From Cyanobacteria bacterium REEB459 (lineage in GTDB: Bacteria > Cyanobacteriota > Cyanobacteriia > Phormidesmidales > Phormidesmidaceae), in NCBI GenBank assembly GCA_018970085.1, contig JAGWXD010000004.1:62001-126000 (forward strand): 64,000 nt of DNA. The letters are read 5' to 3'. The position numbers and the translations under genes are program-made. Positions 37,135-45,677 of the stretch are shown one piece after another. The notes beneath the pieces were generated by a model that was given only the letters and a program-made list of their open reading frames with translations, was not told the origin of the DNA and made no database searches. Numbering within the stretch: position 1 is the stretch's first letter; each line of letters begins with the position of its first letter.

Positions 37135-37893
37135 TTAGGGATCGGCTGGAATTACCCTGACGGTACCCTTGATTTGAATATGGTCTGGAGTAATTACAAA
37201 GTCATCAATCTCCGTTTCCGACCCCAAATCAAAGGCAACTGTCTCCATGGCGATCGGGTCAGACCAGGCCCCATCAGCATAGCGGCTGACCAGGGGCTGG
37301 TGCAAATATAACCAGCGTTGATCTTGAAGCACCATAGCAGTTTCTAACCGCAGGCGATCTGCCCTCAGATCCGGCTCGCCCCAGGTTAGGGCCAGCCAGT
37401 TGTGACCGAGCTCAATGCCGGTTACTGTCGAAAGGCAGGGTAAGACGACCAGAGTCTGCGGGTCTAGCGGCTCTAATCGGGCCACCAGGTCCCCTAGCCC
37501 CTGAAGCAGCAGCGGTGCCCCTAGGGAGGCTTGCAGGTCTTCACGACTAAGCCACACCTGGCCCTCAACCGGGAAGGGCTGTAACAATCGCAGCGCCTTG
37601 CCGCGCAACACCTGACCCAGGTTTAGACAAATATCTCTGGCGATCAGCCGGGCATGGCTCACCCGCAGCCCCTGATAGGCAGCCCGATTAGCAGCCAGAG
37701 TCACCTGGGGTAAATTGCCTGAGAGCAACTGGCGGTCCTGGCCGTCAATGCCAAACTCTAATCCTTCCAGGTGATCAAGCTGGCTGTGCAACCAGAGTCG
37801 AATAGCGGCAGGTAAAAACCGGGCGATTAGCCGACTCCCTCGCACCCCAGAGGTTTGCTCAGCCGCCATAGAGGACTCAGAGTTATGATTCAT
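37135..37893 (-). CDS. DUF2993 (LmeA-like phospholipid-binding) family protein
   Basis: A 252-residue protein of the DUF2993 family, the second in this window (the other at 21151-21945). It is beta-rich after an N-terminal amphipathic helix (FLPAAIRLWLHSQLDHLEGL) and has the family pattern SARLIAR-DICLNLGQVLRG and EGQVWLSREDLQASL. No clear signal peptide, so the location is uncertain. It lies a few bases upstream of the DUF815 gene and is probably cotranscribed with it. Lipid binding is inferred from the family only. Its upstream region, shared with the divergent DUF4912 gene, contains an unusual nested inverted repeat. Confidence 0.77.
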   Translation of the reverse strand: MNHNSESSMAAEQTSGVRGSRLIARFLPAAIRLWLHSQLDHLEGLEFGIDGQDRQLLSGNLPQVTLAANRAAYQGLRVSHARLIARDICLNLGQVLRGKALRLLQPFPVEGQVWLSREDLQASLGAPLLLQGLGDLVARLEPLDPQTLVVLPCLSTVTGIELGHNWLALTWGEPDLRADRLRLETAMVLQDQRWLYLHQPLVSRYADGAWSDPIAMETVAFDLGSETEIDDFVITPDHIQIKGTVRVIPADP

Positions 37894-38092
37894 AGCCTTC
37901 TACACCATAGGTAAACCCCGAGGGCCCGGCCCCAGAGACTAGAACTAGACAGCTTGGGCCAGCATGAGGTGATCTGAGGCATCTGTCTGGCCAACCAATC
38001 CCCTACCTGTGGATGCCAGTCTACCAGAGTTGGAGTTTAGTTGTCCCCACCACCCCGCCATGTAGCTCTAGCAGAGAAACCCCAGACCGCCA

Positions 38093-38230
38093 GGGGATCA
38101 AATATGATGCTTTTGTGACGTATTTATACTTATTGGGATCAAAATGTCAGGATATTCTGACATTTTGATCCCAAAACCCCTGATGCCTCGCATTCAAAGC
38201 TAGAAAAGCCTTTCCTGTGGCTTGATCCCA
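38093..38230. repeat. Nested inverted-repeat array built on GGGATCAAA
   Basis: Four copies of the GGGATCAAA-type motif are arranged head to tail then reversed: 38094-38102 (forward), 38135-38143 (forward), 38164-38172 (reverse) and 38222-38229 (reverse, TTGATCCC). The inner pair forms an 18-bp perfect hairpin, described separately. The even outer pair spaced about 130 bp apart suggests a composite site, such as an operator array, or the remains of a small palindromic element. Which it is cannot be decided from this copy. Confidence 0.6.
38133..38174. repeat. 18-bp perfect inverted repeat with 6-base loop
   Basis: TTGGGATCAAAATGTCAG (38133-38150) is the exact reverse complement of 38157-38174, with GATATT between. 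No T run follows on either strand, so it is not an ordinary terminator. It lies 212 bp before the DUF4912 start codon. Confidence 0.85.
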
Positions 38231-38385
38231 GCCTTTATCTTTGTCATACTACCGATGCAAAGGTGATCTTAAATACCGGTCATCTCCCCCGCTGTTTTTT
38301 TTAGTGCTACTGGCGGAAGGTTTTCTGGCAGTGGCTGCTGATCAGCCAGGTCGTCTACGTTCAATCATGAGGAGGAAATTGGCCC

Positions 38386-39624
38386 ATGTCTCAGCAGTAT
38401 GGTCCCCTGGAAGATTTGACCCTGCGTCAGTTGCGCAAGTTAGCGAGTGATTACGACATATCCCGTTACAGCCGCATGCGTAAAACTGAGTTGATTGACG
38501 CCATTCGTGATATTGATGCCCAGCGGGGACAGGTTCCGGCACCATCGGTACTCACTTCTACCATGGCCGCCCAAACTCAGGTGGCTGCCTCTAAGTACAT
38601 GGCCCCCAATATTCCTCCCCTGGAGGCCCTAGTCTCGGTGGATGAGGGGTTGGCCGACTTACCCGAAGGCTACGGGGAAAGCCGCATTATATTGATGCCC
38701 AGGGATCCTCAGTGGGCCTATGCTTACTGGGATGTGCCCGTCGAGCATAAACAAGATTTGCGCCGCCAGGGGGGAGCCCGGTTGGCCCTGCGCTTCTACG
38801 ATGTAACCGATATTGACTTGAACTATCAGGCTCCCCATAGTTTGCAGCAGTACGAGTGCGACGAGATGGCTCGAGACTGGTATCTGCCGATTCCTGTTAG
38901 CGATCGCGATTACGTGGCAGAAATTGGGTATCTCTGCAACGATGGCCGTTGGTTAGTGCTGGCCCGCTCCCTTCCGGTCCACATTCCCCCGGTTTATCCC
39001 TCTGACTGGGTTGAGGATCACTTTATAACCGTCGATTGGGAGTCCAGCCTGCGTGGTAAGACGCTCATGACCCTGAAGCATCCGAGCCAGAAAGTCACCG
39101 ATAACGGCAACCCCATTTACGACAATATTTTTGCCCTAACCCAATCCGCCGAAGCCCAACGGGTGGCTGGTTCTTTGTTTGGCTCTATGCACCATGTACC
39201 TGGTTCCATGGCACCGGAGCAAGCGATTAGTTCCTACGTCTTCCCCTCAGGAGCAGGGCTTTGGGCTGTACCTGGCATGGTTGCCAATGTATCTGGTTTA
39301 ACCATGTCCGGGGTTGGGTTTTCAGCCTCTGCTCCCCCTATCCGGTCTCGCAAGTTTTGGCTGATTGCCGATGCTGAGCTAATTGTTTACGGTGCTACCG
39401 AACCCGATGCCACGGTTACCATCGGCGGTAAACCCATTAAATTGAATCCAGACGGCACCTTTCGATTTCAAATGTCCTTCCAGGACGGCAATATTGACTA
39501 CCCAATCATGGCGGTAGCAGCTGATGGACAACAGAGCCGATCTATTCATATGACGTTTGATCGGGCTACCCCCTCTCGCCATACCAATACCAAAGAAGAA
39601 GCCGTGCTGGAATGGTTGTCTTAG
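38386..39624 (+). CDS. Rho-N/SAP-like plus DUF4912 protein
   Basis: A 412-residue protein. Residues about 8-50 form a Rho N-terminal/SAP-like helical module (DLTLRQLRKLASDYDISRY then RKTELIDAIRDID), which can bind nucleic acid. Residues about 95-210 are the DUF4912 domain, with the family's DPQWAYAYWDVP and ALRFYDVTDIDLN blocks. The C-terminal region ends in a beta-rich segment (TEPDATVTIGGKPIKLNPDG-like) resembling a small carbohydrate- or Ig-like module. The function is unknown. A good Shine-Dalgarno (GAGGAGG, 38369-38375) precedes the ATG, supporting the start. A terminator follows. It stands alone behind the inverted-repeat region. Confidence 0.83.
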   Translation: MSQQYGPLEDLTLRQLRKLASDYDISRYSRMRKTELIDAIRDIDAQRGQVPAPSVLTSTMAAQTQVAASKYMAPNIPPLEALVSVDEGLADLPEGYGESRIILMPRDPQWAYAYWDVPVEHKQDLRRQGGARLALRFYDVTDIDLNYQAPHSLQQYECDEMARDWYLPIPVSDRDYVAEIGYLCNDGRWLVLARSLPVHIPPVYPSDWVEDHFITVDWESSLRGKTLMTLKHPSQKVTDNGNPIYDNIFALTQSAEAQRVAGSLFGSMHHVPGSMAPEQAISSYVFPSGAGLWAVPGMVANVSGLTMSGVGFSASAPPIRSRKFWLIADAELIVYGATEPDATVTIGGKPIKLNPDGTFRFQMSFQDGNIDYPIMAVAADGQQSRSIHMTFDRATPSRHTNTKEEAVLEWLS

Positions 39625-45636: not shown

Positions 45637-45677
45637 CCAGGGCTACTACCGAGTCGCCGACTTGGTAGTAGCCCTGG
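45637..45677. repeat. 19-bp hairpin after rpsJ
   Basis: CCAGGGCTACTACCGAGTC (45637-45655) pairs with GACTTGGTAGTAGCCCTGG (45659-45677) with a single G-T wobble and a three-base loop. No T run follows on either strand. It is one of the longest stems in the window and may be a transcript-end or processing structure for the str operon. Confidence 0.75.

Follow-up and report, generated by a model that had tools for sequence, protein, structure and literature searches.

The CIRCE element, TTAGCACTC-N9-GAGTGCTAA, stands before chaperone genes and is bound by HrcA, and NrdR boxes are paired palindromes located before ribonucleotide reductase genes. The control region that we describe here resembles CIRCE in being a long perfect inverted repeat that is widespread, has few targets and looks like a hairpin, yet would be read as DNA; it differs from CIRCE in sequence and in target. 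With the NrdR boxes it shares two palindromic boxes, a whole-turn spacing between them and a narrow target set, but again both the sequence and the kind of target gene are different.

Among sites described in cyanobacteria, the CRP/SyCRP1 site is TGTGA-N6-TCACA (PMC2633013), the LexA box is RGTACNNNDGTWCB (PMC3091678), and the NtcA site is GTA-N8-TAC (PMC3898017); PMC2920276 is cited alongside the first two of these papers. The present dyad shares with a CRP site the TGT...ACA form, a similar size and, putatively, a dimeric regulator. It is not a CRP site, however: its half-sites are TGTCA-N8-TGACA, with C at position 4 in 107 of 133 cases and eight bases between the half-sites. The LexA box is likewise a palindromic operator, but of a different sequence, and the base counts of the dyad do not agree with it. 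The NtcA site was rejected as well, the core here having GTC..GAC.

The window, by which we mean the whole 64-kb stretch of DNA analysed, contains the following features of this region.

38094..38099, minus strand: GATCCC box, the first copy of the GGGATC word (exact match; motif enriched in the upstream regions of 133 relatives)
38101..38122, no strand assigned: O1, the upstream dyad AATATGATGCTTTTGTGACGTA, weak here (7.2 bits), 42 bp before O2
38133..38174, no strand assigned: perfect 18-bp inverted repeat with a 6-nt centre, comprising O2 and mirrored GATCCC boxes on both sides; kept in the genus
38135..38140, minus strand: GATCCC box, mirrored, on O2's left side (41 of 132 unique sites have the left GGATC arm)
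38143..38164, no strand assigned: O2, the main dyad AATGTCAGGATATTCTGACATT, the sole exact TGTCA-N8-TGACA of the genome, conserved class-wide
38167..38172, plus strand: GATCCC box to the right of O2, included in the search pattern
38222..38229, plus strand: TTGATCCC box, a possible -35 element at a preferred distance from O2
38245..38250, plus strand: CATACT, a candidate -10 element 17 bp after TTGATC (CATnCT conserved in the genus)
38386..39624, plus strand: target gene, 412 aa, with Rho_N and DUF4912 domains (ORF list, Pfam)

We regard it as likely that these elements make up a composite DNA operator, which would control transcription of the downstream Rho_N/DUF4912 gene.

Results

The inverted repeat and its repeated words

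The arms 38133-38150 and 38157-38174 are perfectly complementary over 18 bp each around GATATT, exactly as the first-pass annotation had described the inner pair, and this repeat tops the list of five compact inverted repeats obtained for the whole window. The same annotation had counted four copies of one word, two in each orientation. Three exact copies of GGGATCAAA are indeed present, at 38094-38102 (+), 38135-38143 (+) and 38164-38172 (-), against 0.61 expected and with three reached in 4 of 100 shuffles; the fourth, on the reverse strand at 38221-38229, is GGGATCAAG, which matches at 8 of 9 positions. Within this word GGGATC proved to be a real second motif, but the widest conservation lies in the inner TGTCA-N8-TGACA dyad, which had not been singled out earlier. 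Across the window GATCCC occurs 11 times and GGGATC 19 times, relative to a mean of 19.4 in letter permutations; neither is enriched elsewhere in the 64 kb, and the sole cluster of three such words within 250 bp is the hairpin region. We also agree that the array contains no gene (no ORF of at least 80 aa is listed inside 38093-38230) and no terminator, the one terminator-like match near the hairpin being a weak one at 38080-38095 of the minus strand (shuffling predicts 0.5 such matches). A further compact inverted repeat of the window, at 45637-45677, has 20-nt arms that are 95% complementary, with 1 nt between them.

Copy number and position in relatives

The genome-wide search that had been proposed showed the region to be single-copy in its own genome (3.24 Mb, 102 contigs). 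In the comparison with related strains, a DNA search of 57 genomes found it before the same gene in 25 of 26 genomes of the same genus (counting the window's own). Of the 31 others one matched, and there only over part of the palindrome. G021, the same-genus genome that this search did not match, also carries a site ahead of that gene, with 2 mismatches. The genus is placed with Nodosilinea, for example Nodosilinea nodulosa PCC 7104 (L155). In the class-wide pattern search described below, the 93 matched genomes have one match each among the matches listed, except for one genome with two adjacent matches.

The exact arms and intergenic location had raised the prospect of a small mobile palindromic element, of the REPIN or MITE type, or else of a chance palindrome in a spacer. 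Since the region is present once and keeps its position in relatives, it does not behave as mobile, and several dispersed copies were not found; since it is conserved ahead of the same gene, it is also more than a chance repeat. With about one match in each of the 93 genomes as well, we regard either origin as exceedingly improbable.

An alignment of 25 upstream regions from the genus revealed a conserved block from about 38093 to 38262, which consists, in order, of a degenerate dyad, the hairpin, a stretch ending CTCGCT, GAAAAGCCTTG..GGCTTGATCCC, and TTTTTG.CAT..TAC. The flanks of this block are poorly conserved, as judged by eye among the sequence listed.

Conservation across the cyanobacteria

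The core of the control region is a 22-bp dyad, AATGTCATGAnnTCATGACATT. The palindrome pattern GGATCR-N3-TGTCA-N8-TGACA-N3-YGATCC, with up to 3 mismatches, was found in 93 of 388 genomes, and its reversed control in 10. At 44 of 49 loci with this pattern a DUF4912 gene lies 201-425 bp downstream in the same orientation; the 5 loci that lack one all have 3 mismatches. The core plus right arm, again with up to 3 mismatches, occurs in 133 of 147 upstream regions and its reversed control in 0 of 147, the 147 regions being partly motif-chosen and left after identical ones were dropped from 178.

A second set was chosen by protein. It comprises 102 regions, after removal from 109 of seven duplicates (same contig under two locus numbers). 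L054, in which the match stops short of the gene start, was left out of this set, and the regions L056-L080 and L084-L132, which had been picked up through similarity of the DNA or through the motif, are absent from it. In these regions TGTCA-N8-TGACA with at most 1 mismatch is found in 98 of 102 (shuffled, 1 of 102), and the core plus right arm with up to 3 mismatches in 89 (shuffled, 1 of 102). Of nine further stretches, those from single genomes of families f3, f6, f9, f23 and f24 showed dyads before the gene; no convincing dyad before the gene was found in f2, f5 or f13 (one genome each). The control region is very old, preceding the same gene in most of the cyanobacteria examined. It stands before DUF4912/Rho_N genes in many cyanobacterial families, and the hairpin is its fully symmetric version, specific to this lineage.

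In the Nostocales (among L175-L227, and also in L092, L094 and L095), a second strongly conserved stretch, approximately ACTGGGCAAAACCAGGAGTCAGGAATAAGAAATTCATCTGG, occupies the interval between operator and gene, in the presumed leader. No Rfam match at gathering score was obtained for this stretch in L201, L184 or L213.

The target gene, and a search for further targets

Pfam identifies Rho_N (E 5.5e-11) and DUF4912 (E 1.4e-43) in the target protein, and in a PDB sequence search the N-terminus of the family weakly matches solved Rho proteins (best E 8.5e-4); no NCBIfam family was found for it. The AlphaFold model of the target is of too low quality to be usable (mean pLDDT 53.9), and the apparent fibronectin-III-like structural matches come from that model. 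Rho_N is above the Pfam cut-off in the f5 and f13 proteins and below it in the f2 protein (20.4 vs 24.9 bits). A divergent LmeA gene is found close by at only 32 of 80 loci, and at 13 of 61 when the window's group is set aside; the DUF4912 gene, which served as query for this neighbour count, is present in 80 of 80.

No wider dyad regulon was seen, either in the window's own genome or in a class-wide scan for strong dyads. Core matches with at most 1 mismatch are not enriched in the own genome (43, vs 53 for the reversed control). Strong dyads, which differ from the long consensus WWTGTCATGANNTCATGACAWW by at most 1 mismatch, were found in 36 of 291 genomes, the control giving 4 hits in 3 genomes; 24 of 30 such loci examined are with the DUF4912 gene. 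The other 6 include one site seen in two genomes, and there may be a few further targets. Upstream of the DUF4912 paralogue in the window's own genome no convincing dyad was found. This paralogue (L289, G000:C101:1-3800) is a long protein, with no dyad upstream of the match, and we read its start as resembling a secreted phosphate-binding-type protein.

Arrays of three GATCCC words were found in 66 of 145 genomes, but these hits include repeats inside coding sequence and others from one family whose genomes are rich in the word. HIP is a word repeated genome-wide, and the abundance of GATCCC in f5 looks like a repeat of that kind: triplet matches number 52 and 52 in G037 and 61 and 47 in G061, the reversed control giving none.

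Two dyads in helical phase

In 97 of 133 regions a second dyad of more than 6 bits (shuffled, 1 of 133) is present no further than 120 bp upstream, and 75 of the 102 protein-chosen regions have at least two dyads of at least 10 bits. The matrix for this scoring was built from 133 sites, and its training regions overlap the scored ones; shuffled regions gave 1 of 133, 0 of 109 and 1 of 102. The spacing between the dyads has a period near 10.4-10.5 bp (R = 0.79, n = 73 after near-duplicates were removed). When only distinct spacing values are used, R is 0.58 with p about 7e-4, a Rayleigh value that ignores relatedness. A repeated dyad at whole-turn spacing, the pattern of a tandem operator, is seen in 72 of 74 cases: these spacings, all up to 130 bp (140 and 189 being excluded for that reason), fall within a quarter turn of whole helical turns, with 45 and 46 as the exceptions. 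Distinct combinations of genus and spacing are in phase in 55 of 57 cases, genus labels having been assigned by hand and loci without a label counted singly, except those of the window's genus. Other out-of-phase spacings are 34, 55 and 56, in the broader set that gave R = 0.79, and 67 in L295. We think that the matching sites probably accommodate a pair of protein dimers, both on the same side of the DNA helix.

The GATCCC motif and a candidate promoter

Counting both orientations, the 133 regions contain 499 copies of GATCCC, where shuffled sequence gives 22.7; the number is 375 when the box fixed by the search is left out. Its preferred offsets are +22 (124 occurrences), +79 to +81 (70), +119 to +122 (68) and +130 to +133 (29), and in reversed form -10 (41); the +22 box was built into the search pattern and the -10 box partly so, through the way in which L084-L132 were found, while the other offsets were not. 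TTGATC at +77 to +79 from the start of TGTCA accounts for 85 occurrences among the 133 regions. About 17 bp beyond the box near +80, TTGATCCC, the window's genus has CATnCT and the Nostocales have TTAATA-like words, which suggests a promoter; in the window we would place it at TTGATC/CATACT. A generic scan of 37890-38400 gave no sigma-70 promoter.

DNA operator or RNA hairpin

An RNA structure was another of the original suggestions, and the predicted fold of the 38093-38230 stretch is stable (-58.3 kcal/mol, z = -7.0). Such a hairpin, whether part of the DUF4912 mRNA leader or of a small RNA, would act post-transcriptionally. Every long palindrome folds well, however, so fold energy cannot separate the RNA and DNA readings. 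Pairing in RNA should favour G-U over A-C combinations on the sense strand. Half-changed sites of the TGTTA..TGACA and TGTCA..TAACA types number 15 and 15, and over five core positions (11-15) there are 26 G-U and 27 A-C combinations. This equal split, together with the helical phasing of the two dyads, for which there is no RNA reason, leads us to prefer a DNA-binding protein.

The outer arms gave a more mixed picture. The left GGATC arm accompanies the right one in 41 of 132 unique sites and is missing in the other 91, which speaks against a paired stem. In the full-arm sites, G-U slightly exceeds A-C at positions 7-15 (16 vs 11), and the spacer triplets, of several different kinds, are complementary in 31 of 41, vs 10 of 91 sites without the left arm. 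These paired changes, found in some lineages, are the best remaining hint of pairing. We think that in many cases the left arm duplicates the right one in mirror image, and for the concerted spacer changes we favour copying between arms via the short palindrome, that is, template switching. L125 and L129, which have the same gene downstream, carry palindromes of which each is exactly the reverse complement of the other; it looks like an inversion of the centre, and these loci fit template switching. Rfam searches of 37800-38500 (E up to 1) gave two hits, both far under the gathering score, and five loci gave none at gathering score. The candidate promoter, if correctly placed, would also lie downstream of the hairpin. 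Taken together, these observations make an RNA hairpin improbable as the main function of the region.

Discussion

Among the earlier suggestions, the operator array has fared best: conservation tracks the DUF4912 gene, the tandem dyads are helically phased, and the sense strand is free of pairing bias. In the composite operator that we propose, a putative dimeric regulator would bind the 22-bp dyad O2, and a second dimer would occupy O1 upstream. As both would sit on one side of the helix, contact between them could be direct or could come about by DNA bending or looping. The GATCCC boxes around O2 and the candidate promoter would probably be read by another protein, or by another part of the same complex; mirroring of the box across O2 in the window's genus then yields the perfect hairpin. 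Conservation, the motif, phasing and the tie to the gene were observed by computation, as were the lack of visible further targets and of sense-strand pairing bias; protein binding, cooperation between O1 and O2 and the position of the promoter are what we infer. In this genome O2 is upstream of the candidate promoter, an arrangement that suits an upstream activator no less than it suits a repressor.

Several observations count against an operator. O1 scores only 7.2 bits in this genome, a generic sigma-70 promoter was not called, the single f2, f5 and f13 genomes are without a convincing dyad, and a few spacings are out of phase. The 31 of 41 complementary spacer triplets are a feature not needed in a simple model of two half-sites.

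A special case of the operator model is autoregulation, in which the Rho_N/DUF4912 protein would itself bind the dyads. Rho_N in Rho is a nucleic-acid-binding domain, and the target and the dyad co-occur with no other target seen, but the domain is known mainly for RNA, and the f5 and f13 genes keep Rho_N (the f2 gene being below cut-off) without a convincing dyad. We consider autoregulation unlikely.

For the operator in general, we found no description in the literature searched, some queries having been too broad to count as negatives. A full-text search for DUF4912 with cyanobacteria returned no paper, DUF4912 alone returned one paper, on cotton, and the five papers matching TGTCATGA with cyanobacteri were unrelated by title.

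An operator is found in 98 of 102 protein-chosen regions, yet we found no literature on DUF4912 in cyanobacteria. The target bears Rho's N-terminal domain, in a phylum from which Rho is said to be missing (a 2026 paper, PMC13289151, is cited in this connection). A conserved and apparently tightly controlled Rho_N protein is a concrete candidate for study, and the dyad can serve as bait for its regulator. Our most speculative suggestion, offered as a long shot, is of a single-gene circuit across much of the cyanobacteria, in which the level of the Rho_N/DUF4912 protein would be set by itself or by a dedicated regulator through phased operators, with a GATCCC-reading protein at the promoter. In this reading the Rho_N/DUF4912 protein might be a stand-in for the termination factor Rho, which the phylum lacks.
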